Source: Adhaeretor mobilis
GTDB lineage: Bacteria > Planctomycetota > Planctomycetia > Pirellulales > Lacipirellulaceae
Reading direction: 5' to 3'
Assembly: GCF_007741515.1 (NCBI RefSeq)
Contig: NZ_CP036263.1
Coordinates: 5,505,178-5,569,177, forward strand
DNA length: 64,000 nucleotides
The notes under the pieces were generated by a model, which was not told where the DNA came from, searched no databases, and saw only the letters and a list, made by a program, of their open reading frames with translations. The position numbers and the translations under genes are program-made. This document shows, in pieces, positions 6,461 through 63,755 of the stretch; the stretch's first letter is position 1; each line of letters begins with the position of its first letter.

Positions 6461-6497
6461 ACGCGCGAGGCGTAGCTCGCGGGCTAGTTGCGCGTTA
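6461..6497. terminator. Hairpin repeat after second kinase gene (copy 2)
   Basis: Same CGCGAG-GCGTAG-CTCGCG stem and flanks as at 2768-2806, differing by a few bases, about 22 bases after the kinase stop. Its position behind each paralogue suggests it acts as a transcription terminator or was duplicated together with the genes. Confidence 0.5.
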
Positions 6498-6565
6498 AAT
6501 TAAGTTCATATCTACGTGTATTAAATCAACACTGCCGACCGCCCACCGCCAACTCCCTCCCCTCA

Positions 6566-8074: not shown

Positions 8075-8219
8075 ACCCGCGTTCGCGTGGTATCGGCAAC
8101 TTGTTGCCCTTTGAACCTTTTTCTACTTGCCTCGAACTAGAGGAAGGGTGCCATCTCGTCACCTTTCTCTATCGCCTATCAAGGGTAGCAAGCTACCCAT
8201 GCCACCCATTACACCGACC

Positions 8220-9014: not shown

Positions 9015-9439
9015 CCCGATTAAGAGTCAGTAAGCCACCTGTCGATAGAATCCAATAGGCTGGAAGCAATGGGACTCAGGCATAGACACTACGGCTACCC
9101 GCCAAAGTCCACTAGCGAGGAGGGATTTTGTCTCGTCAAAAAAAATTTTTCACGCGTTAGATAGGGTCGCCGTGAGTACTGCACCAAGAGTATGATAGAA
9201 GCAGTGGCTCAGGTCACTTAAGCTTGTGTCCCCTCAGGACATGCCAATCCTGTTGTCGTGCCCGTGGGGGGTCTGACACAAGTAGCAGAGAAAATACCTC
9301 GATAGAGTTAGCCCCATTTGCAGTGCCTTGTGCGTGTTGCTGCATAAGGCCAATAGGCACGGCAGGGCGGCTCGGTTCCGGTCTTAGAGGCCCGGAATAC
9401 TCGGAGGGGAGACCACTTTCAAATGATTGGAATAGGGCA
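9015..9439. other. Intergenic region, no gene seen
   Basis: 425 bases without a credible coding frame; the open frame from 9224 has no family character before the FHA start. An A/T run around 9138-9152 (AAAAAAAATTTTT) stands out and could be part of an upstream promoter or a bent-DNA region. No hairpin with a T-run was found. Confidence 0.4.
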
Positions 9440-10144
9440 ATGGAAGTCACTCTGAAAGTTTTAGCGGGTGCAAAGAAAGGCGCAAAGGTTGTCGTTAAAA
9501 AGAGCGAGTTCACGATTGGTCGCAGCGAAGAGTGTCACCTAAGCGTCGGTAGCACCTCGATTAGTCGTCGCCACTGCACGATCTCACGCGGAGAAAATAA
9601 GGTCTCTGTGAAAGATCTTGGCAGTCGCAACGGTACGCTCGTCAATGGCAAGAAAATTGATGGCGAAGTGGAATTGGTGGCCGGCGATGAACTGGTCGTC
9701 GGGCCGCTGAAATTCCAAGTACGCATCAGCACAGGCCTCAAGAACGACAAGAAACCAAAAGTGAAGTCGGTCGCAGAAGCGGTCGAGCGGACGGCTGATT
9801 CCGGCTCGGGCGAATTTGATGTGGACGACATCTCCAGTTGGCTACTTGGTCCTGAGAAACCAGCCGCATCGACGCACGAAACCGTTCAGATGCAAATGGA
9901 CGAGACGAGCTCGATGCCGATTACCAGCGGACCCAAGCCCGCAGAGGCGAAGCCACCCGAGGAAGCACAGGCGCCCGAGGGTTCGTCCGTTATCGATGAA
10001 GAACCCGCCAAGCCAGAGAGCGGCTCTGGCTCCGGTAAGAAAAAAGCCCCTGGCAAGCTGCCGCCAGTGCCGAAAAAGGATAACACGAAGGATAGCCGCG
10101 AAGCTGCCGAGAACGCTCTGCGGGCGTGGAGTCGGCGGCGGTAA
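9440..10144 (+). CDS. FHA-domain protein
   Basis: 234 residues from ATG 9440. The frame is open back to 9224 but the upstream part has no family character. An FHA domain occupies about residues 1-95: strand MEVTLKVLAG, then FTIGRSEECHL, the SISRRHC motif and DLGSRNGTLVNGKKI, i.e. the canonical GR, SxxH-like and N-G phosphothreonine-binding residues. Residues 100-234 are low-complexity, rich in Pro, Glu, Ser and Lys, and probably disordered. FHA domains bind phosphothreonine, so this cytoplasmic adaptor may read marks set by Hanks-type kinases such as those in this window; that link is inference. No enzymatic domain is attached. Confidence 0.9.
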   Translation: MEVTLKVLAGAKKGAKVVVKKSEFTIGRSEECHLSVGSTSISRRHCTISRGENKVSVKDLGSRNGTLVNGKKIDGEVELVAGDELVVGPLKFQVRISTGLKNDKKPKVKSVAEAVERTADSGSGEFDVDDISSWLLGPEKPAASTHETVQMQMDETSSMPITSGPKPAEAKPPEEAQAPEGSSVIDEEPAKPESGSGSGKKKAPGKLPPVPKKDNTKDSREAAENALRAWSRRR

Positions 10145-10424
10145 GATGATCGCTCCCATATCAGCGGCAAGCGAGCAATGAATTTCTATATTGTCATTTC
10201 GACCGTGCGACAGCGTTTGAGACATCCCGTTCTGAGCTCTCGATTAATCTTGTTCCTTCCTCGCGTTGGGATTCGACTCCTCTCGGAATGGCATGATCGG
10301 TGCTTTGTCATTCCCCTGGATCTTCGGAAGGCCTGACTCTAGAGCAACTTGCCTTCGTGCATGTGTAAGATACGATGTAGGCAATCACCACTATCACAAG
10401 CCGACCACGGAGAAGAGACCCGAG

Positions 10425-10679
10425 ATGAGTTCACGCCTTCCAAAGCCGAAAGAACAACCCAAAGCGGCCCTGCTGGGGCTCGCCTTTGATGCGGAAGATG
10501 GCCACAAGCGTTTAACCCGCGGCAAGAACTTCCTCTTGGCGGGTGGCTCCGAAGAAACGCACGGCGTCATGCAAGAAACGGCCATTAAGGTCAACGAACA
10601 GCTTGACGCTCGCGGCAAGAAGCTGGAAGAAGTCTCCTCCCAGGAACTGCGCGACATCGTTGAAGACTCACTACCGTAA
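10425..10679 (+). CDS. Small hypothetical protein, 84 aa
   Basis: ATG 10425 (MSSRLPKPKEQPKAALLGL) is preceded by GGAGAAGAGACC as ribosome binding site; the longer open frame from 10266 lacks one. The protein is soluble and charged, with FDAEDGHKRLTRGKNFLL and a C-terminal part that looks helical (AIKVNEQLDARGKKLEEVSSQELRDIVEDSLP). It looks like a compact conserved planctomycete protein but I cannot assign a function. A strong hairpin follows it at 10702. Confidence 0.7.
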   Translation: MSSRLPKPKEQPKAALLGLAFDAEDGHKRLTRGKNFLLAGGSEETHGVMQETAIKVNEQLDARGKKLEEVSSQELRDIVEDSLP

Positions 10680-10701
10680 GTGACTTTAACGCAGAGAAAA
10701 G

Positions 10702-10734
10702 AAGAACGCCGCGGATTGCTCCACGGCGTTCTTG
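10702..10734. terminator. Bidirectional terminator hairpin
   Basis: AAGAACGCCGCGG-ATTGCT-CCACGGCGTTCTT: a 13-base-pair stem with one mismatch and a 6-base loop, between the convergent ends of the small gene (stop 10679) and the H1-like gene (stop 10759). The A-rich left side (AGAAAAGAAG) gives a U-tract for the minus-strand transcript. Confidence 0.75.
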
Positions 10735-10758
10735 TTGAGCCTAAATTTGTTTGCCCCC

Positions 10759-11310
10759 TCAGCCAACTAGCTCGGCTTCTTCAACGGAAGATTCGTCGCC
10801 GTCGCTGTCGAAACCTTCGACAACCGATTCCGCAGCAATCGGTGCCCGGCCGAGTTGGGCCAACTCAGCAGCGGAAACCTTCTCGTAACCGAGTTCGAAA
10901 ATCACTTCGAGCACTTCGCTACAAGTCGGGAACATGCGACCGCTGGTACGCTTGTATTCGTCCATGGCGTTCATGAACTCGACTTCTTTCTCTGAGTAAT
11001 CACGCTCGCAGGTGGTAGGATCAATCTGGCGGCGACGCTGCACTTTCTCACGACGCTCGCTCTTGGCAACAGGTGCCTTGTTCTCTGCAGCAACCTCCGC
11101 GTCACGACGCTCGTTGCGGCGACGATCGATAGTAACTTCCTCGTCGCCCACTTTCTTGGCAGTCTTGCCCTTGGCGACGGATGTCTTCGTAGTGGGCTTC
11201 GTGGTGGCCTTCTTGGCGGTACGCTTTTTTGCTGAAGCTGATTTTGTCTTGCTAGAGGCTGCAGATTTCTTGGTGGTCTTCTTTTGGGTAGGTGTTTTGG
11301 TCTTGGCCAC
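10759..11310 (-). CDS. Histone H1-like basic protein with C-terminal globular segment
   Basis: 183 residues from a GTG start at 11310, preceded by TAGGAG at a spacing of 8. Residues 1-55 are made of Lys/Ala/Thr/Ser repeats ([20 protein letters not shown]), the hallmark of bacterial H1-like DNA-binding tails. Residues 60-100 are Arg-rich ([16 protein letters not shown]). Residues about 105-155 form a conserved-looking helical segment ([20 protein letters not shown]...[18 protein letters not shown]), and the end is acidic. Likely a nucleoid-associated protein in the condensed planctomycete nucleoid; the C-terminal segment could be a regulatory or interaction module. Confidence 0.8.
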
Positions 11311-12125
11311 AGTTAAATCTCCTAGGCGGGACGTTAGGAAGGGTAGCCAGCGGGGAGCTTAGCTTACAAGTGACTTGGAGGGTCACACAAACATTCCCGA
11401 CTCCGGAGGAAATGCAAATCACAAGGAGATTTCAACTCGGGTATTCTGCGAAAACCTGCCTATCTCGGTAGCCCATGCCGCTTGCTCTGATTGTGCGGGC
11501 AGGATTCTCGACACACGAGTCGTAAGCACCGAGCCCCGTCTCACCCTCTGTCCCTGCCCCCCAAGAGAATTCGAGTGCTCGCGCATCACGGCTCAAGGAT
11601 ACGGCGCTCAAGAATCCCACACCGGCTTGGCTCTGCTCCGACTCTTGCACGGTGTTACTTATTGCACGGCGATACTTTTGCACGGAAGGCGTGTTTCTAG
11701 GTGCAAAAGTCGGCTCGCTCTAGGCGCTGGTTACCGTGTTAACCCTTGCCGTGGCAAGACTTACGCAACGCAAGCAAGGCTCTCCCTGGCGACTTTTGCT
11801 TTGCGATAGTCTGGCGCGTGCAAAACTCTCCGACGCCACTCCATCGGCACGCTTCAGCGTACGGGTACCCGTGGAAAGCGATTCGCAGTCGATCGCGTCG
11901 TACCGACCATTGTACGAAACGCTCTAGCCAGCTTCAGCCACAATTTTTGGCCGGCGTTGCGTTGAGTAGAGAAACGCGCCGATTCCATTCAGCCAGAGCA
12001 TCACTGCGTGGCTAGCCTACGGAAGCGTTTCGCGGAATCTGCCCACGAGACGCGTTTCCGTGCCTTGCTTTGCTTTTGAGAGACCCTACCCCGCCCTAGA
12101 ACGACGGAGAGAAGTGATGGGGAAA
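11311..12125. other. Long intergenic region, no gene seen
   Basis: About 815 bases. Several short ORFs cross it on both strands (e.g. 11375-11809) but none has a ribosome binding site, codon pattern or family motif. Scattered ATs and mixed GC suggest degraded sequence. I looked for tRNA, tmRNA and RNase P-like folds and saw none. Confidence 0.45.
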
Positions 12126-12317
12126 TCAGCCAAGCCCCACAGGCAATTTGGTTCCTGACACCTTTTTACTTTCGATATTCCAGGAGGCAACTGCGTCAAA
12201 AAAGTCAACGGCAAAATCAACGACCACTGTGGCTAGAACTCGTCGCTCCTCCAGTCGCTCGATGCGCAGATGTCGATTGTGAACGTTATATCGCGAGATA
12301 TAGTGCTTGTTTAACAT
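12126..12317 (-). pseudogene. Truncated LEPR-XLL-type exoprotein leader
   Basis: From ATG 12317 the frame reads an N-terminal leader ending in RHLRIERLEERRVLA, the motif (LE.RR/LEPR...LLA) that opens many giant planctomycete surface proteins. After only about 25 further residues the frame enters the REP sequence at 12150-12167, which encodes KKVSGTKLP, and stops. Full proteins of this kind are hundreds to thousands of residues long, so this is the stub of a gene cut by a repeat insertion or deletion. Confidence 0.6.
12150..12167. repeat. Solo REP sequence
   Basis: GGTTCCTGACACCTTTTT is identical to the core of the REP next to the transposase at 14091 and the inverse of the one at 13361. Here only one arm of the AAAAAGGT/ACCTTTTT stem is present. 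It marks the 3' end of the broken leader gene. Confidence 0.8.
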
Positions 12318-12381
12318 TGCCGTTTCTCCATGAATAAAGCACACGGACCAAGTAACGCGTGAAATTATTGAAAGCTGGCCA

Positions 12382-13080
12382 TTAGATTTTTGGCGAGATC
12401 GAAGCTTGATTACATTGCCGACTTCTAGCAACTACCGTCGAACAAAGTGAGGCGAGAAGAAGTAGTAATGAAGATGGTTCTGGTATGGTTTGATCGTTGA
12501 GTTCGAACCACATCCCACCGGTCTCAAAAGTGTTCCAAGGACCGGAGGCGACACTGCCTGATGTTGCAGCGGTCAGTTGATCTAATTCGCTATCTGCCCG
12601 CGCCCAGACCCAACCCAGATTGGGTTGCGGAGTATTGGTAATAGATAGCCAGTAAATCGTGCCAGGGCTTAAAACGAGTCCGCCAGGCACGTTGACTATA
12701 TATTCGTGCGGAGTTGTAACCCCATTGAGCAATGGCCCACCCGTCGGCTCACGACTATACGGCGAGCCGATATCAAAATCGCCCCCTACAAGAGGTGCAC
12801 CAGGTAACCCACCTGCGTCTTCCAGGAACACAACTCGGAAGACATCAGGTGTCGGTGTCACTACGCCGGTACTGCCGATAAAACGTAAGGAGCGGACTGT
12901 CACCGGTTCCGCTGCATCGATCAGAAAATTGTCTGCTGATTTTTGAGAGATCGGGAAGTCAGCGGACGAAAATGCTGCAAACGGCTCCGAGGGCGTGGTT
13001 TGGCTGTAGATCGTCGCGGCTGATGCATTGAACGCTGAACTGAGCCCAATTGCTAAACAAATACTGAAAATACTCTTCAT
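12382..13080 (-). CDS. PEP-CTERM sorted secreted protein
   Basis: 232 residues from ATG 13080 (MKSIFSICLAIGLSSAFNASA, a signal peptide cleaved after ASA). The longer start at 13113 would spoil the signal peptide. The body is a beta-rich domain with YSQTTPSEP, ADNFLI, VRSLRFIG and IYWLSI, a pattern common in planctomycete PEP-CTERM proteins of unknown role. The C-terminus carries the tripartite tail IPEPSSLLLLLASL, then basic ARSRQ, which is recognised by exosortase. The sorting enzyme is not in the window. The final residues CNQASISPKI extend beyond the usual end. Confidence 0.88.
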   Translation of the reverse strand: MKSIFSICLAIGLSSAFNASAATIYSQTTPSEPFAAFSSADFPISQKSADNFLIDAAEPVTVRSLRFIGSTGVVTPTPDVFRVVFLEDAGGLPGAPLVGGDFDIGSPYSREPTGGPLLNGVTTPHEYIVNVPGGLVLSPGTIYWLSITNTPQPNLGWVWARADSELDQLTAATSGSVASGPWNTFETGGMWFELNDQTIPEPSSLLLLLASLCSTVVARSRQCNQASISPKI

Positions 13081-13360
13081 TGGTCTGCCACTCTCTCTCG
13101 CGGTTAACCCCACTGATGCTTAGTGTAGCGGGGCATGACCGGTTCAGCAGATAATTCTCTTATTACAGAGGAATCTCTGAGTCATTACCCAAAAGTTCGA
13201 AGGATAATACCAGCTGGGGTACACCCAAAATGAGCCCCTCGGCAACCGCATCAAAAGCCTAGTTTTGAGCTGTCCACAATCCCGATTTCCAGGGGGACCC
13301 TATTTGAGCCCTTTTCAGGTCGCGAGCAAAAGAAAAGCCGCCCGTTGCCAGGCGGGCCAT

Positions 13361-13384
13361 AAAAAGGTGTCAGGAACCTTTTTT
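13361..13384. repeat. REP hairpin, left of transposase
   Basis: AAAAAGGT-GTCAGGA-ACCTTTTT is a perfect 8-bp stem with a 7-base loop, 37 bases before the transposase start. Its inverse copy is at 14091-14113. REP-associated transposases recognise such hairpins. Confidence 0.85.
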
Positions 13385-13420
13385 CTTGACTCTCCAGCGT
13401 TTCCTGACTAATCTGGCCTC

Positions 13421-14104
13421 ATGGGAAGATCACACCGAGCCGCCCGCGGGGGCCTCGTTTATCACGTCCTGAACCGCGCTAACGCGCGTATGACCATTTT
13501 CGAGAAGGACGAGGACTACGCGGCTTTTGAGCAAGTGCTCGAAGAGGCCGTCGAGCGCACCGGCATGCGACTGCTGGCTTACTGCCTGATGCCCAATCAT
13601 TGGCATCTGGTAGTCTGGCCGGAGCAGGACGACGATTTGTCGCGTTTCACGGGGTGGCTGACGCTCACCCACACCCAACGCTGGCACGCTCATCGGCACT
13701 CTACCGGTAGCGGCCACGTCTATCAGGGGCGATTCAAGTCGTTCCCGCTGGAGGATGATGAGCATTATTTGACGGTCTGTCGTTATGTTGAGCGGAATGC
13801 ATTGCGAGCGAACCTGGTTGCCCACGCAGAGGCGTGGCGGTGGAGTAGTCTTTGGCGATGGAGTCAGGGAGACGCCTCGCAGAAGCAACTTCTGGCCAAG
13901 TGGCCCGTGCGTCGTAGTCCCAACTGGGTGGAGCACGTCAACCAGTGCCTTAGCGAAGCTGAGCTTAAAGCCATTCGCCGGAGCGTCGAACGGGGCCGTC
14001 CCTACGGTTCTGCCAAGTGGAGCGATCGCACGGTGAAGCAACTGGGCCTGGAAAGCACACTTCGCCCACGAGGCAGACCGAGAAACAAGCAAAAAGGTTC
14101 CTGA
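13421..14104 (+). CDS. REP-associated tyrosine transposase (Y1/HUH family)
   Basis: 227 residues, a typical length. The start MGRSHRAARGGLVYHVLNRA is the family's N-terminal signature. The HUH metal motif is NHWHLVVWP near residue 64, and the candidate catalytic tyrosine is in CRYVERNAL near 124. The C-terminus ends GLESTLRPRGRPRNKQKGS. The enzyme nicks and joins single-stranded DNA at REP hairpins. It sits between inverted REPs at 13361 and 14091, and its own stop codon lies inside the right REP. The same C-terminal motif is found in the mini-elements at 20618, 22033 and 23708, which derive from a related transposase. Confidence 0.93.
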   Translation: MGRSHRAARGGLVYHVLNRANARMTIFEKDEDYAAFEQVLEEAVERTGMRLLAYCLMPNHWHLVVWPEQDDDLSRFTGWLTLTHTQRWHAHRHSTGSGHVYQGRFKSFPLEDDEHYLTVCRYVERNALRANLVAHAEAWRWSSLWRWSQGDASQKQLLAKWPVRRSPNWVEHVNQCLSEAELKAIRRSVERGRPYGSAKWSDRTVKQLGLESTLRPRGRPRNKQKGS

Positions 14105-14113
14105 CACCTTTTT
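14091..14113. repeat. REP hairpin, right of transposase, containing its stop codon
   Basis: AAAAAGGT-TCCTGAC-ACCTTTTT, the inverse of the left REP. The TGA at 14102-14104 within the loop ends the transposase frame, so the last residues (KGS) are REP-encoded. Confidence 0.85.
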
Positions 14114-14261
14114 CGAGGCCCAGGATTGGTCCTCCCCTCTTTGTTTTTCCCCTTCGCTTCTCCGCAAAAGTCTCGCGGGACGACTGCCAATCGTCGCAAT
14201 CCGCTCTACAATGTTGGCTGCTTCCTACCAACCAAGAAAAGTTAGCAAAGCGAGTTCTCCC

Positions 14262-15851
14262 ATGCCTTTTCGATTTTCCATCGCCGTTGCCTTTTTGCTC
14301 GCTTGCTCCCTCTTCCCAACTGCGTTGGCTGCTGAAAACACCGATCAACCTATCAGCGCCGACTTCGTACTCCAGGATGGCACGATCGTGGATGGCACCG
14401 GCGGGGAGCCCTACCAAGGCAGTGTCGCAGTGCGCGATGACAAGATCATCGCGGTCGGGAAGTTTACTCCCGGAGAGGTCAAGCGGACCATCGATTGTCG
14501 CGGGCTCGTGATCTGCCCGGGGTTCATCGACCTGCACAACCACAGCGACAGCACGATCCTCACTCCCGAGACAAGAGATTCGCGTTGTTATTTAACGCAG
14601 GGCTGCACCACACTGGTGACCGGCAATTGCGGTGGCGGCCCGATCGAAGTGGGCAAGTATTACGATGAGCTTGCCGCGCAAGGTATCGGCGTCAACGTCG
14701 CGCACCTGCTGCCGCAGGGGAGCCTGCGGGGCGAAGTGATCGGACAAACTCGCCGTGCACCAAACGACACCGAACTGCAAAAAATGCAGTCGCTCGCCGA
14801 CACCGCCATGCAGGAAGGCGCGTGGGGCATGTCGACCGGGTTGCAGTACGTGCCCGGTTCGTATGCCGACACTGCCGAACTCGTGGCGATCGCCAGTCGG
14901 ATCGCCAAGCAGGGGGGTTTTTACGCTAGTCACATGCGCGACGAAAGCGATGAATTGCTGGAAGCCGTCGAGGAAACGATCGAGATCGGCAGGCAGGCAA
15001 ATCTGCCAGTGCATGTCTCGCATTTCAAATCGAGCAAGCGTCGCAACTGGGGCAAGGTCCGCGCGGCAGCCCATGTCATTGAAGAGGCCCGCAAGAATGG
15101 CGTGCGTGTGACGGCCGACCAGTATCCGTACACCGCGTCATCCACCTCGATCATGGCGATGCTGCTCTCAGACAAAGAACGCGAAGGGGGTAACCAAGCC
15201 ACCGCCGAGCGGCTCAAGAACCCGACGGAAGCGGCACGGCTCCGCCCGTACGTCGCCGAAGCGCTGGCCGCCCGCGATCGGGTGATGATCGCTTCCTCGA
15301 AACAGCAGCCTGACTGGGTTGGCATGCTGATCCGCGAGGTCGCCGCGGCAGAGAAGCGCGAACCGATCGACATCGCGATGGAAATCCTGCTCGACGCGAG
15401 TGCCCAAGGGGTCAACTTCAGCATGGACGAAGGGGACGTACGATACGTGATGATGCTCCCCTGGGTCGCCACCGCATCGGACGGCAGCGTGAAAATCGAC
15501 GACGGCTCCCGGCCCCACCCGCGCAGTTTTGGCACCTTCCCTCGCAAGATCGGCCGCTACGCCATCCAGGATAAGGTGCTGCCACTGGCCGCCGCCATCC
15601 GCAGCGCCAGTGGCCTCCCTGCCGACATCCTCGGCATGACCGATCGCGGCTACGTGCGCACCGACCAAGTCGCCGACTTAGTGGTTTTTGACCCAGTGGA
15701 GTTGCAGGACAATGCCACGTATCAAGAACCGTTCCAACCCTCGCAAGGCGTCCGCTGGGTGCTAGTCAACGGCAAGCTGGCCATCGACAACGGCGAGTTG
15801 CTGGAGACCTTAGCAGGCAAACCGTTGCGGCGCGACTCCGGTGGCGAGTGA
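14262..15851 (+). CDS. N-acyl-D-amino-acid deacylase (amidohydrolase), secreted
   Basis: 529 residues from ATG 14262; residues 1-26 (MPFRFSIAVAFLLACSLFPT...) form a signal peptide. The frame is open to 14211, but that start buries the signal. The family is D-aminoacylase/metal-dependent amidohydrolase: GFIDLHNHSDSTI supplies the first metal-binding His pair, TTLVTGNCGGG the conserved cysteine loop, ASHMRDES the metal-bridging region, VHVSHFKSS and ADQYPYTASST further ligands, and HPRSFGTFPR the C-terminal signature. It should remove acyl groups from N-acyl-D-amino acids in the periplasm. It is monocistronic, with a hairpin terminator 105 bases downstream. Confidence 0.92.
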   Translation: MPFRFSIAVAFLLACSLFPTALAAENTDQPISADFVLQDGTIVDGTGGEPYQGSVAVRDDKIIAVGKFTPGEVKRTIDCRGLVICPGFIDLHNHSDSTILTPETRDSRCYLTQGCTTLVTGNCGGGPIEVGKYYDELAAQGIGVNVAHLLPQGSLRGEVIGQTRRAPNDTELQKMQSLADTAMQEGAWGMSTGLQYVPGSYADTAELVAIASRIAKQGGFYASHMRDESDELLEAVEETIEIGRQANLPVHVSHFKSSKRRNWGKVRAAAHVIEEARKNGVRVTADQYPYTASSTSIMAMLLSDKEREGGNQATAERLKNPTEAARLRPYVAEALAARDRVMIASSKQQPDWVGMLIREVAAAEKREPIDIAMEILLDASAQGVNFSMDEGDVRYVMMLPWVATASDGSVKIDDGSRPHPRSFGTFPRKIGRYAIQDKVLPLAAAIRSASGLPADILGMTDRGYVRTDQVADLVVFDPVELQDNATYQEPFQPSQGVRWVLVNGKLAIDNGELLETLAGKPLRRDSGGE

Positions 15852-15956
15852 CCGAGCGGGAACTACCCTAATGCACACACCTTATGGGCTTAGAACTTTT
15901 CCCAAAACTGCCTGCCATCACCAGCTGCGAAAACCCTCCCCGGCCCCGAGAGGCCG

Positions 15957-15981
15957 ACCCTCCCAAGGGGAGGGTGTTTTT
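15957..15981 (+). terminator. Rho-independent terminator
   Basis: ACCCTCCC-CAA-GGGGAGGGT stem followed by GTTTTT, downstream of the deacylase gene. A second hairpin of the same sequence type lies at 16007-16025. Confidence 0.7.
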
Positions 15982-16006
15982 CAGAGGCAGGTTAGGATTG
16001 AGTGCC

Positions 16007-16025
16007 ACCCTCCCTCTGGGAGGGT
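16007..16025. repeat. Second GGGAGGGT hairpin
   Basis: ACCCTCCCTCTGGGAGGGT, an 8-bp stem with a 3-base loop, followed by CGACG-TCTCAG-CGTCG. It repeats the stem of the preceding terminator and lies between the convergent deacylase and desaturase genes. Confidence 0.6.
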
Positions 16026-16146
16026 CGACGTCTCAGCGTCGGGGAGGGTTGCACCTGAGAACGGTTGGCCTTCGGCTGTTAAGTCAGCAAGCTGGGGATG
16101 GCAAGCTGTTTGATCGTTAGCAGCGAATGCGGCTCAAGCAACGCAT

Positions 16147-17262
16147 TCAGTCTTTCCGTCCCAAGGTGCGCAGGGCGACGGCATGCTGCCGAAGCGCTTC
16201 GCGGAAGGTCGGGTATTCTACGTACGCCACGCCATGGTCTTGGCACGTTGTGCGCACATAATCGGAAACCAGTGGATAGCACGTATGCGGTAGCCGCGGG
16301 AAGAGGTGGTGCTCAATTTGAAAGTTCAATCCGCCAACGAGCCACCCGATCGATCGGCTCTGCGTAGCAAAGTTGGCGGTTGTTGCTAACTGATGCTCAG
16401 ACCAAGTGTTTGTCGGTCCGGCCCGGCAGAACTCAGGGGGCGTCAAAGCGTCCGGCACAATGTGCGCTAACTGAAACACGGTAGCCAGCGTGAGATTGAA
16501 GACTACGGCAATGACTGCCAAACCGGCCAGCGCCGTCGTCCACCCGCACACTACCGCCGGTAACGCCCAGAGCATGAGGAAGCACAACAGTTTGCCAAGA
16601 CAAAACGCGACCCTATCTCCTGCGGTCATGTGGGGCAATTGCGTGTGCTGATCAACGCGCCCTGTTACGAACATTCGTATGTCGCGCAGGTTGTGGGCAC
16701 TGAAGTTCAGCAAATAGACCAACGGAAAGTATAAGTGTTGATACCGATGCCACCACCGTCGCGGATGGTCGTACGAGAGTCTCAGCACGCCTCCACTGTC
16801 GATGTCGTGGTCGGCGCCCTCGATGTTGGGATACGTATGGTGCCGCGAGTTGTGGACGTAACGCCACACATGGCTGCTGATGCCGATGACGTCTGTCAGA
16901 AAACCGACCGCGCGATTTGCCCGACGAGCGACGAACATGGCGCTGTGATTAGCGTCATGCGTCACATTCATGGCCACCAGAGCATCGGCCCAGGCAAACA
17001 GTGCGCACGCCGCCAGATAGGCGACGGATAAACCGTCGCGCCCGATGGCCAGCATGAGTCCATACAAACCGATCCACAGAGTGCAAATCGTGACTGCCTT
17101 GACGAGCAACCGTTGCCGCGCTGACTGGACCACCGTGGGGGTGCAGATCTGATGGACCCCCGCCTTGAGATCCACAAAGAGCGCATCGGTGCTTGGGAAC
17201 GGGCGGACCACGGGCAACTGCCCGCGCGCGATGCGTGATTGTATCGGCGTATGGCTCGGCAT
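16147..17262 (-). CDS. Membrane fatty-acid desaturase
   Basis: 371 residues. The three histidine boxes of membrane di-iron desaturases are present: HDANH near 102, HNSRHH near 137 and QIEHH near 316. The QxxHH form is that of front-end/acyl-lipid desaturases. Hydrophobic stretches near 55-95 and 205-255 give the usual two pairs of membrane helices. No cytochrome b5 domain is fused, so an external ferredoxin or cytochrome must supply electrons. It should introduce a double bond into membrane lipid acyl chains; the position cannot be told from sequence. Start ATG 17262. No partner gene is adjacent. Confidence 0.92.
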   Translation of the reverse strand: MPSHTPIQSRIARGQLPVVRPFPSTDALFVDLKAGVHQICTPTVVQSARQRLLVKAVTICTLWIGLYGLMLAIGRDGLSVAYLAACALFAWADALVAMNVTHDANHSAMFVARRANRAVGFLTDVIGISSHVWRYVHNSRHHTYPNIEGADHDIDSGGVLRLSYDHPRRWWHRYQHLYFPLVYLLNFSAHNLRDIRMFVTGRVDQHTQLPHMTAGDRVAFCLGKLLCFLMLWALPAVVCGWTTALAGLAVIAVVFNLTLATVFQLAHIVPDALTPPEFCRAGPTNTWSEHQLATTANFATQSRSIGWLVGGLNFQIEHHLFPRLPHTCYPLVSDYVRTTCQDHGVAYVEYPTFREALRQHAVALRTLGRKD

Positions 17263-17378
17263 TCAGTCCTCAGCTCGATCTTTATCGAATGGGTTGAACC
17301 CGAGACTACCTCAAGCTCGCAGCACTTGCCATGTTAACTTCGCTCGCCCGCTTGGGTCAAACTTGGGGTGAAACATTT

Positions 17379-18624
17379 CAGGACTACGCAAAGAATGAAC
17401 CTGTGCAGATCAGGTTGCGTACGTGTTTTAGAGCAACTAACGTTTCGTCCTTAATTTCAGGAGGTTTTACTGTGAATGCCGCTCACGCGGAGAGTCTGCT
17501 AGCTCACTTGCAGCAGATTCCCGACCCGCGTGGGGCTAAAGGAAGGCGCCACTCATTGCAGGCCATGCTGGCCACCGTTGCCTGTGCCGTATTGTGCGGT
17601 GCGCGAGGCTATGAAGCCATTGCCCAGTGGATTCACGCTCAAGAGAAGAGCGTTTGGTATCTGCTGGGGTACTTTCGCACGCCGCCCAAAGAAGGCGCGT
17701 TTCGTTACTTACTGAACATGATGGACCCGGAGCAACTCGAACAAGCCTTGCGTGCTTGGATCACTCCTCACGCAGAAGTCGACCCCCAAGCAATGGCCTG
17801 CCTAGCCATTGATGGAAAGACGCTTTGTAAGACCCTGGATCGGTACGGCAAGTCGGTCCATCTCTTGAGCCTGTTTGATCAGCAGACCGGCTGCGTACTC
17901 AGCCAAATGCCTGTCTCGGGAAAGACGAACGAGATTAAGACCGCCCCCGAAATTCTCCAGACGCTTGTCTTGGAAGGACGTGTGGTGACCGGAGACGCGA
18001 TGTTCGCACAGACCGAGATTTGTAGGACCATTACCGATTCGGGCGGTGACTTCCTGATTGTCGTAAAAGGCAATCAGGGAAACTTAGAAGAAGACATCGC
18101 CGGTGATTTCTTACCGGCCTTTTCCCCCCGCCAGTCAGCATAAAAAAGAGGCGTTCCAAACCGAGGTCCGGACGCACACCAAAGAGCATGGTCGCGTTAT
18201 CACGCGGCATCTTCAGGCCAGCACGCGGATCGTTCCGCACCTCTCTCGCTGGCCCGGACTTCGGCAGGTGATTCGCTTAGAGCGTACGAGTCGTCGCAAC
18301 AACGAGACGATCACCGAGGTCCAGTATGCCATCACCAGTCTCTCTCCGCAGCGTGCCGATGCGGAGAAGCTGCTTGAGATCTGGCGTAGCCATTGGGGCA
18401 TTGAAAACCGTTTGCACTGGGTTCGTGATGTCCTCTGGCAAGAAGACCGTTGTGGGGTCCGTCATCACCGTGGAAGCCAAAACTTAGCCTGCTTCCGCAA
18501 TGCGGCTATCAATCTGCTCCGTTTAGCCAAAGTCCCCAGCCTCATCGGTGCTATCAGAGAAAACGCTTACCGAGTCGATAAGCTATTCGCCAAGCTGGGT
18601 ATCATGAAACTTTGAATCGCCCTG
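17379..18624 (+). mobile_element. ISAs1-family insertion sequence
   Basis: 1246 bases. The left end reads inward CAGGACTACGC and the right end CAGGGCGATTC, weak inverted repeats starting CAGG. The sequence GAAACATTT lies directly outside both ends (17370-17378 and 18626-18634), a 9-base target duplication, one base displaced on the right. The single gene inside is a frameshifted transposase. Confidence 0.7.
17472..18615 (+). pseudogene. ISAs1-family transposase, frameshifted
   Basis: Starts at GTG 17472 behind a strong ribosome binding site (CAGGAGGTTTTACT). The N-terminal part (SLLAHLQQIPDPRGAKGRRHSL) is the DDE_Tnp_1-associated domain. Catalytic residues are seen as Asp in LAIDGKTL and Asp in TGDAMFAQ. 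The frame stops at 18143; the rest (HTKEHGRVITRH..., SHWGIENRLHWVRDV with the catalytic Glu) continues in the +1 frame to 18615. The switch falls near the run TTTTCCCCCC at 18120-18129, so one base was lost or gained there. Other ISAs1 transposases are a single frame, so it is probably inactive unless the shift is a sequencing error. Confidence 0.85.
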
Positions 18625-18750
18625 GGAAACATTTCAGAACCAGTCACCCATTCCCATTCCCTAGCGATCTTTTAGGAATGCTCAAATCAGGTTCGATTCT
18701 TGCGCCTTTATCTCGCGGCGAACTCGCTACGGTGCGTCGAACAATGAATC

Positions 18751-18963
18751 GAATGGCACGTAGATTTCTGGAAGCGTTTACGCCGAACTGACCTAGGCAA
18801 AAAAGGCCTCACTTGCACAGATGGTGTTCTCTAACACCACCATTACTAGCAAGCAAGGCTTTTTTTGACGACGTTCGTTCAGCAAGGACTAAAGAAAGTA
18901 CTGCTGCGATAGCGATGCTTAGGAGTTGGGGTGATAGGACTTAAAGAAAAGTAAGTGCCATTC
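18751..18963. mobile_element. Chimeric MITE made from two IS4-type element ends
   Basis: 213 bases without a gene, bounded by GAATGGCAC...GTGCCATTC. The first half (18751 to about 18856) matches the transposase-upstream end of the deleted element at 41419-42277 in inverse orientation (GAATGGCACGTAGATTTC, GGTGTTxTCTAACACxACC). The second half (TTTTTTTGACGACGT... AAGTAAGTGCCATTC) matches the transposase-upstream end of the intact element at 43456-45048. It could be moved in trans by the intact transposase. Confidence 0.78.
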
Positions 18964-18982
18964 GCGTACCGAGCTGACGCTC

Positions 18983-19031
18983 GTTGCTAACTCCCCTCGG
19001 ACTGGTAGGCCGACGCGAATTGGCAAGTTGC
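18983..19031 (+). repeat. 49-base inverted repeat, left copy
   Basis: Begins GTTGCTAACTCCCCTCGGAC; the inverse copy is at 20567-20615 with a few differences. The pair flanks the hypothetical gene at 19239-20285. Confidence 0.75.
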
Positions 19032-19238
19032 TATCGTGCCCTCCGAGGGGGCGTCCTCGCAATCGCAGCGTCGAATACCCCTTCGGTTAGTAAGCAAAGA
19101 ATCTCTGCAATTGAAATAGAATCGCATGCTATCAGTGGACTCTTTTAGCTAAGGTAATGACCTTAACACGATTCAAACTTAGGTGGATAATCAACTTACG
19201 TGCAGTCGGCAGGTTTGACAAAAAAACAGGAAATAGAC

Positions 19239-20285
19239 ATGGCATCCCAATGTTTACATTTAGTTAAGCTTCTCAGGGATACCCTAATTGCGCTTCTGCT
19301 TGCAATTCCGTTGTGTTCGATTCAAACTTCCGCTCAAGATTCACCCACCGGAAATCAGGACAGCAATTACAGCTGTACTTTCAACTTGCAAAGCGAGGTT
19401 TTAGCTACCCCTGCAACAATCCCTCTAATTTCAGATGGACGGCCAGTGAATCTAATTCGCATCTTTGGAGAGTTAGATTCATCTGGAATTGGAAGTGGCT
19501 TTCTTGTTTGCGAAGAAGGTGAATGGCAATTCAATAGTTTTGGTGATGCCAGCCTCTCTCAATTAAAGCGAAAGAAGAAAATCCCTGTCCAATTTCACTT
19601 GGAAGGTGTGAATGCACAGCGTGAAAAACTAATTCGAGTTACCTTTGAACCGACTAGGTCGGAGCAGGATCTATACCTATTGCTAACGGATAAAGCGAGT
19701 CTGGCCAGATCCAGCCAGCTGATGCTTGGTGTGCACCAGAGATATTTAGTAGGGAATGCGAAACCGCCCCGACGCACTGATACACTGTCACCAACGCAAG
19801 TAATACAACTTTTTGATCGTGTTCCGATTGCTGAGAAAACGGACGATAGCCAGGCTGGTGTAAAGCAAACATTACCTCCAAAGACCTCCTTAGCAAGCGG
19901 CTATGTGACAGGAGTAGCCGAGAATCCGAGTGATTTAGGTTTATTGGAGGTTCCCTTGCGTAACCGTAGATTGAGTAAATTAATATGTCTCGACCAGAAT
20001 AAATGCTCTTATGAATGGTCAGGTAAACATTTCCACAGCGCGGTTACTATGGTGGCTTATCCGGGGTACTTGATTAAGCTAGAAGCATTGCGACTCAAAG
20101 ACCCACTCAATAGAGGACGGAGCCTATATCACGTGGAATTTCTAGAAGAGAATCGTATTGAGGAACTCCAAGGCAAGGAGCTCTATCTAGTTGCTGATTC
20201 AAGTGAGTCTGAACCGTACCGGCTCTTAGTACGTCAAGGTGAAGATTTACAATACGTGTACCGGATGACTTCAATCAAACGCTAA
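19239..20285 (+). CDS. Hypothetical secreted protein
   Basis: 348 residues from ATG 19239, behind ACAGGAAATAGAC; a GTG at 19200 is in frame but has no ribosome binding site. Residues 12-34 (LRDTLIALLLAIPLCSIQTS) look like a signal peptide or anchor. The rest is beta-rich and without recognisable motif; two segments resemble each other loosely (VNLIRIFGELDSS... with KLIRVTFEPTRSEQDLYLLLTD, and LIKLEALRLKDPLNRGRSLYHVEFLEENRIEELQGKELYLVAD), which suggests an internal duplication of a strand-rich domain. Base composition is AT-richer than the neighbouring core genes. It lies alone between 49-base inverted repeats and may be acquired. Confidence 0.72.
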   Translation: MASQCLHLVKLLRDTLIALLLAIPLCSIQTSAQDSPTGNQDSNYSCTFNLQSEVLATPATIPLISDGRPVNLIRIFGELDSSGIGSGFLVCEEGEWQFNSFGDASLSQLKRKKKIPVQFHLEGVNAQREKLIRVTFEPTRSEQDLYLLLTDKASLARSSQLMLGVHQRYLVGNAKPPRRTDTLSPTQVIQLFDRVPIAEKTDDSQAGVKQTLPPKTSLASGYVTGVAENPSDLGLLEVPLRNRRLSKLICLDQNKCSYEWSGKHFHSAVTMVAYPGYLIKLEALRLKDPLNRGRSLYHVEFLEENRIEELQGKELYLVADSSESEPYRLLVRQGEDLQYVYRMTSIKR

Positions 20286-20566
20286 CCACTGAGCGTATAA
20301 AGGAAGCCGTCGAAATCCATTCGAACCTGTTACGTTAGCAGAAATCCTATACGTCACGGCGAATTGTTGCACTGCTGGTAGTGAAAGCAGACTTCCATGA
20401 GCCGTCACTGGAACGCAGCACCTCCAGGTCTCGCCCCGCAAGACCTACTTCCGATTCTTAACCTACCGTAGCTTACAGGTGATCATTTTGGCGGGCCGGT
20501 CGCCCTCGAAGCAGGAAACTGCCGGTTGCTAAAGTGTGCCGTTGACGCCCACCTATGAGTCAAAAC
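20286..20566. other. Intergenic, no gene seen
   Basis: No coding frame with a ribosome binding site or family pattern. The stretch leads into the inverted repeat at 20567 and the mini-element at 20618. Confidence 0.4.
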
Positions 20567-20615
20567 GCAACATGCTAACGTGCGTCGGAGTACCAGTCCG
20601 AGGGGAGTTAGCAAC
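20567..20615 (-). repeat. 49-base inverted repeat, right copy
   Basis: Inverse of 18983-19031; ends CCGAGGGGAGTTAGCAAC. Mismatches are concentrated in the distal third. Confidence 0.75.
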
Positions 20616-20617
20616 TA

Positions 20618-20837
20618 GGGAAACAACGGTTTCAGGTCTATTTTAGGGTCGGGGCCGATCCGCTAGACTGCGGGCATGCCTCGCACGAAACGTCATTGTC
20701 CGACCGGTCACGTTTTTTTGACGTCCTCAATCGAGCCGGAAGCAGAGCGCCTGGGCCTGGGCCTGGGCCTGGGCCTGGAAAGCACCCTACGCAAGCCGGG
20801 CAGGCCTAAACAAGAGACCTGACCCTTTTGTTTCTCC
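20618..20837 (+). mobile_element. RAYT-derived mini-element 1
   Basis: Bounded by GGGAAACAACGGTTTCAGG and the inverse-type end CTGACCCTTTTGTTTCTCC. Inside, ATGCCTCGCACGAAACGTCA begins the N-terminus of a REP-associated transposase (MPRTKRHCP.GHVF...DVLNRA), and the end (GLESTLRKPGRPKQET then TGA) is its C-terminus; the catalytic middle is deleted. At the junction CTGGGC is repeated four times (20751-20774). Close relatives lie at 22033 and 23708. Confidence 0.75.
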
Positions 20838-20862
20838 ACAAGGCAAGATCAATGGGGAACTG

Positions 20863-22032
20863 ATGCCTTTTGAATTCTTAAACCGTGTGTTTCGTTCTCA
20901 ACACGCTTCTAGCTTACTAGTAGCGTGTTTACTCTGCCTGACCTCCACGGGTTTAGCGATGGGAGGAGAACGTTGGTCCAAGGAACGAGCCACCCAGTGG
21001 TACGCCAATCAACCGTGGCTAGTTGGTTGTAACTTCTTACCGAGTTCTGCCATCAACCAACTAGCCATGTGGCAGGCCGACACATTTGATCCAGAAACCA
21101 TTGATCGTGAGCTAGGTTGGGCCGAGTCGATCGGTTTCAACACCGTTCGCGTGTATCTCCACGACCTGCCTTGGAGCGAAGACCGAGACGGCTATTTTAA
21201 GCGGATCGACGAATTCCTCTCGATTGCCGAGAAGCACAAAATCAGTACGCTGATGGTGATTTTTGACGGCGTCTGGGATCCAGATCCCCAGTCGGGACTG
21301 CAAAGACCTCCACGCGCGGGAGTTCACAACAGTGGCTGGGTGCAAAGTCCCGGGCGAGTTCTCCTGGCCGATCCGAAAAAACAGGATCAGCTCAAACCGT
21401 ATGTCACCGATCTCGTCACCCACTTTGCCAACGATGAGCGCATCGTCATTTGGGACCTCTTCAACGAGCCTGACAATCCAAACACAAGTAGCTATGGGCC
21501 ACTAGAACTCGACAATAAGGATGAGGTTGCTGCTCAATTGACAAGAAAGGCGTTTGGCTGGGCACGCTCGGTCAACCCATCGCAGCCTCTGACGGTAGGA
21601 GTGTGGCGAGGGCCCGCTTGGGATAATCTCAAAGATCTCAATCTTGTGCACCAAGCTGCCCTGGAACTGAGCGACGTCATCTCCTACCACGATTACGGCA
21701 CTCCGGAAGCTATGCAGGCTCGTATCGACGAGCTTCGCAAGTACGGTCGTCCGCTGATCTGCACTGAATACATGGCCCGTGGTCATGGGAGCACATTTGA
21801 GACGATCCTGCCGATTCTCAAGAATGAGAAAGTCGGCGCGTATTGTTGGGGATTGGTCGATGGCAAGTCTCAAACGAAGTACCCGTGGTCGACTTGGCAA
21901 ACACCGATTCTCGGTGAGCCAGAACTCTGGCACCATGATATTTTTAACACCGATGGTAGTCCTTATCGTCAGAAAGAAGTGTCCCTAATCAAAGAACTGA
22001 CAAGCAGTGAAAGCAACGGGGATGAGAAGTAA
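20863..22032 (+). CDS. Glycoside hydrolase family 5-like secreted enzyme
   Basis: 389 residues; a signal peptide of about 33 residues (ASSLLVACLLCLTSTGLAMG). The (beta/alpha)8 cellulase-type fold is indicated by WLVGCNFLPSSAINQLAMWQ, NTVRVYLHDLPW, the acid/base glutamate in WDLFNEPDN near 203 and the nucleophile glutamate in PLICTEYMAR near 303, with an aromatic WGLVDGK at the active-site end. It should hydrolyse beta-linked polysaccharide outside the cytoplasm; the substrate is not readable from sequence. The gene lies exactly between two RAYT-derived mini-elements: the left ends 25 bases before its start and the right begins at the base after its stop. Confidence 0.88.
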   Translation: MPFEFLNRVFRSQHASSLLVACLLCLTSTGLAMGGERWSKERATQWYANQPWLVGCNFLPSSAINQLAMWQADTFDPETIDRELGWAESIGFNTVRVYLHDLPWSEDRDGYFKRIDEFLSIAEKHKISTLMVIFDGVWDPDPQSGLQRPPRAGVHNSGWVQSPGRVLLADPKKQDQLKPYVTDLVTHFANDERIVIWDLFNEPDNPNTSSYGPLELDNKDEVAAQLTRKAFGWARSVNPSQPLTVGVWRGPAWDNLKDLNLVHQAALELSDVISYHDYGTPEAMQARIDELRKYGRPLICTEYMARGHGSTFETILPILKNEKVGAYCWGLVDGKSQTKYPWSTWQTPILGEPELWHHDIFNTDGSPYRQKEVSLIKELTSSESNGDEK

Positions 22033-22154
22033 GGGGAAACAAAGGGGGCATGCCTCGCACCAAACGTCATTGTCCGGCCGGTCACGTTTCTTGACGTCCT
22101 CAATCGAGCTGGAAGCAGAGCGCCGCGCGCCTGGGCCTGACCTTTTGTTTCTCC
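22033..22154 (+). mobile_element. RAYT-derived mini-element 2
   Basis: Begins GGGGAAACAAAGGGGGCATG directly after the glycosidase stop codon, carries the MPRTKRHCPAGHVF leader region, is deleted further than copies 1 and 3 (the GLEST tail is missing) and ends CTGACCTTTTGTTTCTCC, 6 bases before the stop of the convergent protease gene. 122 bases. Confidence 0.72.
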
Positions 22155-22160
22155 AAATAA

Positions 22161-23120
22161 TTAGCCTCGGCTTCTGCTTCTACGTGTTAAGAAACCTAAG
22201 CTAGCACCAGCCAGTAGAACTAGACTTGAAGGTTCAGGCATAGCGGTTTTCGATGCAATCGTGTCATTAATCCAAGCTGACGCAAGGTTCACTTCGTAGG
22301 CGGAGCTTGCTGCGCCATAGCGTGAAACTCCTTCGCCGCCAGATGTGATTCCAGCTAAATAGAAGTCTTCATCGGACTGAATGAACCATCCTCCGCCTGA
22401 ATCTCCGGGCATGGCTTGGCCGCCGAGAGCAGAGAAGTTGGAGAATCCCGGTTGAGTGAAAAAATACTCTAAATATCCAGTTGTAGGCGAATCTGCGAAT
22501 TGGACAAAATTCTGTGAAGCGCGCTTAACACCGTCAAGGGTAGGCGCCGCGCCAGTTGCAGGGGTTCCAGTTTGTCCGTATCCAACAATGCTAGCGACGT
22601 CACCAACCTGTACGGAACCCTGGTAAAGCTCCGCTGGCGCAGCCGTAGTAAACCCATCTTCAAAGTAAAGCAAAGCCAGATCCACTCCTTGCTCGACACC
22701 GTCGTAGCCAGGATGCAAGAACACTTCGGTAGGTGTCTTAAACTCCTGAGCACCTGTAGAGGTGTTCGATCCGATGACGAATAGAAACTCTTCTGGTAGG
22801 AGTAGTGAGTTCGGATTGTTTACGTCAGCAACAGTGGCGTGTCCCGCCGTAAAGGCCCAATTAAATCCACCAAATTGGTTCATAGGGCCCACACCGACAC
22901 CGGAGGCAAAGCCGGTGTCGCCAACAAAGAGGCCGCCGACGCTTGGAAACAAAGCCGCGTATTCAGTATACGCAGAGGCTGGTGTAATGTTCACATTGTG
23001 AACACCAACCGCATGCGCATTCGAGACGACGCCACAAATGACCGGCACCGCCAACATAGCGACGCCTAACATCAGCATCACAAACGGATCTCTAGCAGCG
23101 CATTCTATTGTAGGTTTCAT
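22161..23120 (-). CDS. PEP-CTERM sorted trypsin-like serine protease
   Basis: 319 residues with an N-terminal hydrophobic signal (FVMLMLGVAMLAVPVICGVV). The chymotrypsin-fold triad is visible: His in FTAGHATVA near 92, Asp in GVDLALLYF near 147 and Ser in MPGDSGGGWF near 241, with VGYGQTGTP between. The tail TAMPEPSSLVLLAGASLGFLTRR is a PEP-CTERM sorting signal, so the protease should be released or anchored at the surface by exosortase. The gene converges with the glycosidase. Confidence 0.9.
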   Translation of the reverse strand: MKPTIECAARDPFVMLMLGVAMLAVPVICGVVSNAHAVGVHNVNITPASAYTEYAALFPSVGGLFVGDTGFASGVGVGPMNQFGGFNWAFTAGHATVADVNNPNSLLLPEEFLFVIGSNTSTGAQEFKTPTEVFLHPGYDGVEQGVDLALLYFEDGFTTAAPAELYQGSVQVGDVASIVGYGQTGTPATGAAPTLDGVKRASQNFVQFADSPTTGYLEYFFTQPGFSNFSALGGQAMPGDSGGGWFIQSDEDFYLAGITSGGEGVSRYGAASSAYEVNLASAWINDTIASKTAMPEPSSLVLLAGASLGFLTRRSRSRG

Positions 23121-23707
23121 TGTACTACTTTCCTTGTCTATCCAAACGAACGGCTTCCAGAATCCAACGCCGAGTCAGACTCCAACAAAAATTTCTCGTA
23201 ACCTGTCCCTATAAGAACAAGACCAAAAATCTTGAGGCTATAACATGAGAGAAAACCATTCTCTCGCCTCAAGTTCGTGCGCACGCACGCCTAAGCGCAG
23301 CACTGCTCACGAACTTAAGAACAATAATGTCTACTCGAAAGAAGTTACCTAGAAAAGGAACGGCGGGAAAAAACCCCTAGTTCTTAAGTCTCGACCACCC
23401 AACCACTACATCTCACTCGCCCTCACAATGCCTAAGCCCTGCAAGCCGACCTAATACATCTGCTTAAGGTACTGCCTCGGAATTTCGTGCCATGGAAGCT
23501 TTCTGATATTTGTAATCCCTCCTCATTCAATCTGGTTAAGTGTTCAAACTCGTTCGTCTTTTCCTGCGGATCAGCCAATCCTCGCAGTGCCTTATATCTT
23601 GGTAGGTGGCCCGCTTGGTTTTTCCTGTCGTCATCGTTTGACAGCGTCACCAGACTATTGTAATTGCTGGCATTGCCCCAATCTACAATAGGAGAAGAGA
23701 CGCGATG
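23121..23707. other. Intergenic region upstream of protease gene
   Basis: About 590 bases. It should hold the protease promoter (minus strand). An open frame of 72 codons on the minus strand (23432-23650) has no ribosome binding site or known motif. The palindromic AAGTTCGTGCGCACGCACG region near 23271 and its inverse-like TCACGAACTTAAG near 23308 form a possible hairpin. Confidence 0.35.
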
Positions 23708-23908
23708 GGGGAAACAAAGGGGTCAGATGGCCGGGGCCGATCCGCTAGACTGCGAGCATGCCTCGCACGAAACGTCATTGTCCGGCCGGTCACGTTTTTT
23801 TGACGTCCTCAATCGAGCCGGAAGCAGAGCGCCGCGCGCCTGGGCCTGGAAAGCACCCTACGCAAGCGGGGCAGGCCTAAAAAAGAGACCTGACTCTTTT
23901 GCTTCTCC
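23708..23908 (+). mobile_element. RAYT-derived mini-element 3
   Basis: 201 bases between GGGGAAACAAAGGGGTCAG and the inverse-type end CTGACTCTTTTGCTTCTCC. It contains the MPRTKRHCPAGHVF leader, DVLNRAGSRA in a shifted frame and the GLESTLRKRGRPKKET tail before TGA. It is the least damaged of the three copies and shows best that they derive from a transposase gene by internal deletion. Confidence 0.78.
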
Positions 23909-24045
23909 GCCGCTGACGCTCGCGATAGTTGGAGTAGTGCTAGCACACCGGCAGAGGCGAACTTGCGTCCTACGACCCACGCCGCTACTCTCCGCCACGG
24001 AACTATTTGCCAAACTGAGGAGAACGCCGCTGCGCGTTGCCCGTG

Positions 24046-24777
24046 ATGTCGACTATCGCTACCCGTCTACTGCTTGCCGCCCTGCCCTGCTTGTTGGCTG
24101 TGGGCTGCAAACAGATGAATACGCAGGCCCTGAATTCAGAGGGAGTGCGTCTTTATCAGTCTGGCAATTATGCTCAGGCGGCCGATCAGTTTCAGCGTGC
24201 CGTGGCAACCGATCCCAAGAACGCCACCAGCTACTACAATCTGGCCGCGGCACTTCACAAGAGTGCCAAGTTGCAGAACAACACGGCCGAATTTGCTCAG
24301 GCAGAGCAACTCTACAATCAGTGCCTGGAGTACGATCCCAATCATACCGAGTGTTATCGCGGGCTGGCCGTGCTACTCACCGAAACCAATCGCCGCGACG
24401 CCTCCTTTCGCTTGCTCGAAGGCTGGGCTCAACGTAGTCCCAAGTTGGCCGACCCGCGTATCGAGTTGGCCCGCTTGCTGGAGGAAAATAACAACCTACC
24501 CCAAGCGACCACACGTTTGGTTGAGGCCATCTCGATTGAGCCGCAGAACAGCCGCGCGCTCACAGCACTGGGCCGCTTGCGAGAGATGTCCGGCGATCGT
24601 GCCCAAGCGCTCGCCAACTACCAGCGTTCGCTCACAATCAACCGCTTCCAACCAGAGATATCCACTCGCGTAGCGTCGCTGCAAGCCGCCGGCGTTTCGC
24701 CCGCCGCACCGCCAATTGTCACGCCGCAAGGCGACACACGAACGGCAACACAATGGCAGCCTGTTGTGCGCTACTAG
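24046..24777 (+). CDS. TPR-repeat lipoprotein
   Basis: About 243 residues from ATG 24046; TTG 24037 and GTG 24043 are alternatives. The signal is a lipoprotein type with lipobox LLAVGC, so the protein is anchored in a membrane by a lipidated cysteine. Five or more TPR units follow (EGVRLYQSGNYAQAADQFQRAV, ATSYYNLAAALHKS, FAQAEQLYNQCLEYDP, ALGRLREMSGDRAQALANYQRSL). The C-terminal 30 residues are Pro/Thr-rich. It resembles PilF/BamD-like scaffolds in form only; the partner is unknown. It converges with the J-domain gene and overlaps its stop by four bases. Confidence 0.85.
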   Translation: MSTIATRLLLAALPCLLAVGCKQMNTQALNSEGVRLYQSGNYAQAADQFQRAVATDPKNATSYYNLAAALHKSAKLQNNTAEFAQAEQLYNQCLEYDPNHTECYRGLAVLLTETNRRDASFRLLEGWAQRSPKLADPRIELARLLEENNNLPQATTRLVEAISIEPQNSRALTALGRLREMSGDRAQALANYQRSLTINRFQPEISTRVASLQAAGVSPAAPPIVTPQGDTRTATQWQPVVRY

Positions 24778-43191: not shown

Positions 43192-43455
43192 AGAACTCCT
43201 TAGCTCGTTCAAGGATAGTCTTCCACACTATGTGACAAAACGGCTGGAACAGCAGAGTGTACTGTTACCCAGCAAATCCCCTGGTAGATTATACCTTTCC
43301 TGCGTTCTATCGCCAAAATTGTGGTTTTCAAAAAGCAGTTTTCAAGGCAGCGGAGGCACCCATCAATCGCTGATGCCGCACTTCCGTAAGTGACAAAGGA
43401 GGCGTCGTCCTGGGGCTGGAATGGCAGACGGCTACGACGCGTCGGAGTGAAACGC

Positions 43456-60896: not shown

Positions 60897-60905
60897 GGAT
60901 GTTAA

Positions 60906-60937
60906 CCTCGTTCCCACGCAGGAGCGTGGGAACGAGG
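60906..60937. terminator. Perfect hairpin CCTCGTTCCCACGC, copy 1
   Basis: CCTCGTTCCCACGC-AGGA-GCGTGGGAACGAGG: 14 base pairs, 4-base loop, ten bases after the XRE stop. A second copy with another loop is at 63713. Probably a terminator or dispersed palindrome. Confidence 0.75.
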
Positions 60938-60998
60938 ATCGACTGGATAAGAAACACTCATCTCGTAAATCCAGTCGATCCAGTAATCCGGTCCAACC

Positions 60999-63663: not shown

Positions 63664-63712
63664 GTTGATCCTTTTGGTAGAAGTTTTGTTTTCCGCTTTT
63701 CGTACCACCCAA

Positions 63713-63744
63713 CCTCGTTCCCACGCTCCCGCGTGGGAACGAGG
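63713..63744. repeat. Perfect hairpin CCTCGTTCCCACGC, copy 2
   Basis: CCTCGTTCCCACGC-TCCC-GCGTGGGAACGAGG, the same stem as at 60906, here between the capsid-like gene and the gene that enters from the window end. Confidence 0.8.
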
Positions 63745-63755
63745 ACATAGAGGAT

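Follow-up and report, generated by a model that had tools for sequence, protein, structure and literature searches.

A GH5-like glycosidase gene between internally deleted TIRtron derivatives in a Lacipirellulaceae genome

In a Lacipirellulaceae genome of 6.0 Mb (one contig), a gene for a GH5-like glycosidase stands so tightly between two short repeats that the locus raises the question of whether the repeats carried the gene to its present place or came to lie at its two ends in some other way. We examined the locus within a window of 64,000 nt, the whole stretch of DNA analysed, and give coordinates as positions in that window unless another reference is named (Table 1). The exact bracketing described in the first-pass annotation is reproduced to the base. 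Specifically, mini-element 1 (ME1) is separated from the ATG at 20863 by a spacer of 25 bp (20838–20862), and mini-element 2 (ME2) begins at 22033, immediately after the stop codon at 22030–22032. The right edge of ME2 is 6 bp from the stop of a convergent protease gene. Both of the mini-elements reported at first are there, but a third copy (ME3) had been overlooked. All three have the same orientation and fall within 3.3 kb, ME3 being 3.1 kb from ME1, and the layout is element–gene–element–gene–element, in which ME3 brackets the protease gene too. With ME3 counted, the direct copies form a run of three with two neighbouring intervals, and the ME1/ME2 'pair' is one of these intervals.

Table 1. 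Coordinates of the features discussed, as positions in the 64,000-nt window.
Feature	Position	Strand	Description
Lineage-specific block	~11480–23955		Four relatives lack it at the corresponding place; boundaries are approximate
TIRtron	13361–14113	+	Apparently intact; different terminal repeats (AAAAAGGTGTCAGGAACC); Y1/HUH transposase CDS 13421–14104
Hypothetical gene	19200–20285	+	361 aa; between 52-nt inverted repeats 18980–19031 / 20567–20618
Mini-element 1 (ME1)	20618–20837	+	TIRtron derivative with an internal deletion; the left terminal repeat (GGGAAACAACGGTTTCAG) is degenerate, the right one intact
GH5-like glycosidase gene	20863–22032	+	Intact, 389 aa; N-terminus signal-peptide-like
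Mini-element 2 (ME2)	22033–22154	+	Same derivative as ME1, plus two more deletions
Trypsin-family protease gene	22161–23120	-	PEP-CTERM-like tail; convergent with the GH5 gene
Mini-element 3 (ME3)	23708–23908	+	Left terminus best preserved of the three (GGGGTCAG); lacks 9 internal bp that ME1 has

The resemblance among the copies is not due to chance, since identical aligned bases number 186/200 between ME1 and ME3, 111/121 between ME1 and ME2, and 114/122 between ME2 and ME3, and a genome search with ME1 as the query retrieved ME3 with E = 7e-70 and ME2 with E = 2e-30. Every copy (3/3) opens with MPRTKRHCP, and the start of the transposase reaches only NRAGSRA before a T-rich tract shifts the frame and the tail follows. 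The leader and the frame-shifting tract are common to all three copies; the junction to the C-terminal tail is identical in ME1 and ME3, and ME2 retains the junction region up to its own later deletion. Because these parts are shared, the deletion of the core is older than the copying. Other lesions differ from copy to copy: ME1 has its degenerate left end and a tandem expansion of GGGCCT, ME2 has deletions of the left subterminal region and of most of the GLESTLRK tail, and ME3 has its 9-bp loss. Of the MPRTKRHCP–GLESTLRKxGRP fusion described in the first-pass annotation, the leader is found in all three copies, but the fusion is in frame in ME1 only (49 aa); in ME3 it is out of frame and runs into another stop, and in ME2 the reading frame stops after 14 aa and the tail DNA is lost. 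With the leader–tail frame open in ME1 only, there is therefore no conserved mini-protein, and such a product was rejected because the reading frame differs between copies. The three mini-elements are non-coding, MITE-like fossils.

The mini-elements are too short for an HUH/Y catalytic core, which is missing. The MPRTKRHCP leader and the GLESTLRKxGRPK tail have counterparts in full-length proteins from the order (three examples were compared), which are ~225–235 aa long, most of them starting with MPR and having a LGLESTLRPRGRPKK-like tail. The full-length elements of the order measure ~730–820 bp, with ends matching the mini-element termini. TIRYT genes encode RAYT-like Y1 transposases and are flanked by long terminal inverted repeats with the motif GGGGWSAS, not by REPs (PMC3733652); TIRYT/TIRtron elements probably correspond to subclass 2.1 of TnpA-Y1 (PMC6006769). 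The termini of ME3 are GGGGAAACAAAGGGGTCAG...CTGACTCTTTTGCTTCTCC, and the inner GGGGTCAG at its left end fits GGGGWSAS; the remaining mini-element ends are degenerate variants, and the GGGG core is gone from the outer (left) end of ME1. The termini quoted at first are present in the DNA, but the left one is intact in ME3 only, as ME1 has GGGAAACAACGGTTTCAG in its place and the left side of ME2 ends at GGGGAAACAAAGGGG. By sequence, the mini-elements descend from a TIR-flanked (TIRYT/TIRtron) Y1/HUH transposase and are not true REPs. An origin from REP-associated transposases, as first proposed, is borne out insofar as these are RAYT-like deletion derivatives, but the REP part is not, since GGGGWSAS terminal inverted repeats are what the ends match; 'TIR-associated' is the better reading. 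With GGGGWSAS terminal repeats, a Y1/HUH derivation without the core, and more than one copy of one derivative, they have the features of non-autonomous TIRtrons.

A genome-wide search for copies found just ME1, ME2, and ME3, plus one separate remnant near genome position 4210482 (4.21 Mb; locus L004, 1501–1625), in which the leader shared with the mini-elements (MPRTKRHCPAGQVFHVLNRAVARVHIFEK) is joined to AGAGACCTG at a junction of its own, marking a separate deletion derivative. Neither the genome's 14 Y1_Tnp matches nor a terminus search yielded an autonomous parent with the mini-element ends; the cognate parent could have been lost, or the mini-elements imported. Among 396 genomes of the order, the congener included, no more copies were found: the search returned partial matches only, several of them to full-length transposases. 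Related short elements in the order include one of 409 bp and one of 112 bp. Neither plasmids nor viral contigs (the latter searched with an exact 28-base pattern) gave a match, on which ground phage or plasmid import was rejected. The TIRtron in the window has a transposase that matches PF01797 (E = 3.6e-15) and scores 66.8 bits with NF047646, under that model's cut-off of 80. A second AAAAAGGTGTCAGGAACC-type element lies at genome position 4.72 Mb, and there are solo ends too (e.g. at 12150 in the window).

The gene between ME1 and ME2 has a weak match to the GH5 domain (PF00150; E = 2e-8, 34.5 bits, cut-off 23.5), and it carries the motifs WDLFNEPD and LICTEY (acid/base NEP and nucleophile Glu), which are kept in its closest orthologues; by domain and catalytic motifs, it is a predicted glycosidase. 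Its C-terminus aligns with the orthologues through LIKELT, followed by a short tail. Truncation by ME2 was rejected, because the protein is full length and ends a few residues beyond its closest orthologues. In the GH5 tree, it is placed with homologues from Lacipirellulaceae (support 0.97; up to 71 per cent identity). The orthologues of relatives are at unrelated loci, no homologue was found in the congener, and there is no second copy in its own genome. A conserved gene cluster was rejected, as none of the patch's other genes turned up close to the GH5 orthologues of relatives. The gene is best read as an ordinary gene of the family that came to stand between two mini-elements.

The comparison of orthologous loci suggested in the first-pass annotation found the GH5 gene not to be syntenic in relatives; synteny without the mini-elements, named there as part of what would refute the proposal, was thus not observed. 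In the congener and three further members of the same family, homologues of the genes at 6488–11310 directly precede the homologue of a TPR gene at 24037, so that the homologues of genes 10759–11310 and 24037–24777 adjoin; nucleotide similarity to the congener, read by eye, ends near 11480 and is back by ~23955. The gene adjacency in four relatives and the break in similarity therefore define a lineage-specific block of ~12.5 kb. It is this whole block that differs between genomes, and not the 1.5-kb bracketed unit; relatives are without the entire block, and a site lacking just the 1537-bp ME1–GH5–ME2 unit did not turn up.

These observations bear directly on the proposal that the pair carried the gene, in which the left end of ME1 and the right end of ME2 would have moved GH5 as cargo (1537 bp) by single-strand transposition. 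Such a composite would account for the direct orientation and the exact bracketing, and it would suit relatives that have no GH5 gene at this place, with none at all in the congener and orthologues at unrelated loci. Yet the presence/absence unit has the wrong size, ME3 brackets the next gene as well, the outer end of ME1, on which a composite would depend, has no GGGG core as it stands now, a transposase for these ends is absent, and GH5 is single-copy in the genome. We regard the composite as very improbable, and we would give hardly any credence to the general proposition that crippled direct-orientation TIRtron derivatives can act as ends for the single-strand mobilization of whole host genes as cassettes. 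Carriage of GH5 by ME1 and ME2 is unlikely; beyond the geometry, we found no positive support for it.

The block is a repeat-rich patchwork in which accessory genes (GH5 and the protease) lie between two conserved neighbours. It contains the TIRtron, an amidohydrolase, a fatty-acid desaturase, a broken ISAs1 transposase, the hypothetical gene, the three mini-elements, GH5, and the protease; the last is sporadic in relatives and has three paralogues in its own genome. The ISAs1-family transposase (17331–18615) is in two overlapping frames and is probably a dead copy. The hypothetical gene is nearly without relatives (two weak matches, both in 1/147 genomes), and the 52-nt arms around it are 85 per cent complementary, with a 22-nt core that occurs nowhere else in the genome. 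Two further repeat pairs lie outside the block. At 43439–45065, 47-nt inverted repeats related to a repeat at 18848–18980 are 1533 bp apart, nearly the spacing of the 18980/20567 arms (1535 bp), and two similar 35-nt palindromic repeats (AACCTCGTTCCCACGC...GCGTGGGAACGAGGA) are found at 60904–60938 and 63711–63745.

Such a patch might have grown by recombination between repeats, in which case the mini-elements would be joints between segments and not insertions into an older gene order. All copies are clustered in direct orientation, the gap at ME2 is only 6 bp, and the right inverted-repeat arm ends where ME1 begins, each of which is consistent with joints, as is a GC3 below that of most neighbouring genes (0.58–0.74) in the hypothetical gene (0.40), GH5 (0.56), and the protease (0.46). 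However, neither a donor nor a second arrangement was found in the sampled genomes of the order, plasmids, or viral contigs, and GH5 groups within the same family. We consider this origin unlikely.

It is probable, in our assessment, that the mini-elements are MITE-like TIRtron deletion derivatives that were mobilized in trans and went into extragenic DNA of a lineage-specific patch of mobile elements, with GH5 between two of them. One MITE-like non-autonomous element would have arisen when a TIR-flanked Y1 (HUH) transposase element (TIRYT/TIRtron, RAYT superfamily) lost its internal part; a transposase that the genome no longer encodes would have copied it in trans to three nearby sites in extragenic gaps of the patch, where the copies would then have decayed. 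We saw no site from which one mini-element alone was missing, so transposition itself is what we infer, and the copies may have hopped locally or arrived as a block. For dispersed transposition, it is odd that a 6-Mb genome has all three copies inside 3.3 kb, a clustering that would also fit block import or duplication.

None of the three insertions is inside a gene, which is the expected pattern if those in genes are lost; tolerance of extragenic insertions may be the cause of their placement. REPs of a related class are likewise reported to be extragenic, mainly downstream of genes, between convergent or unidirectional ORFs (PMC3733652). Without the mini-elements, the gaps would measure ~357, 6, and 715 bp (by coordinate arithmetic). 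The distance of ME1 from a start codon is not remarkable. The odd case, and a point against extragenic insertion at random, is ME2, for which 6 bp between two stops is an unlikely target; the elements may prefer convergent gene ends, or the two genes may have been joined at the element.

The elements might instead target or persist at gene ends and act there, for instance with ME2 forming a transcribed hairpin and ME1 supplying the 5' leader of GH5. ME2 takes up almost the whole gap between the two convergent stops, the reported placement of REPs is in line with such a role, and the RNA folds of the mini-elements are more stable than those of mononucleotide shuffles (z = -2.2, -2.9, and -3.1), but terminal repeats alone would predict stable folds. 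Moreover, three copies at one place are no sample, each has decayed in its own way, and a promoter or terminator was rejected, as a consensus scan found no such site in ME1 or ME2. A role at gene ends therefore seems to us distinctly improbable. Most likely, the neat bracketing of GH5 is a by-product of TIRtron derivatives landing between genes and not a gene-carrying device.

What the locus puts on record is a small family of TIR-type Y1 elements with internal deletions, private to a Lacipirellulaceae genome. Had the elements carried GH5, this would be a new way for genes to move, but carriage is not what the evidence favours; the kind of element is already known, and the bracketing likely has an ordinary explanation. 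Like TIRYT/TIRtron elements, the mini-elements have GGGGWSAS terminal repeats, the N-leader and C-tail of the transposase, and the layout of full-length relatives; unlike them, they are without the catalytic core, their termini are partly decayed, and no parent with the same ends is present in the genome. They resemble MITEs in their length (122–220 bp), ~19-bp terminal inverted repeats, several copies, and lack of conserved coding capacity, but they number three, are clustered, and have no visible target-site duplication. For Y1 elements, such a duplication is not expected. An identity as REPs or REPINs was rejected, given three copies only and termini that are long inverted repeats. With REP/REPIN/BIME sequences mobilized by RAYTs, the mini-elements share an extragenic position and a related transposase superfamily, but they have no GTAG-tagged short palindromes, are low in copy number, and retain internal remnants of the transposase.
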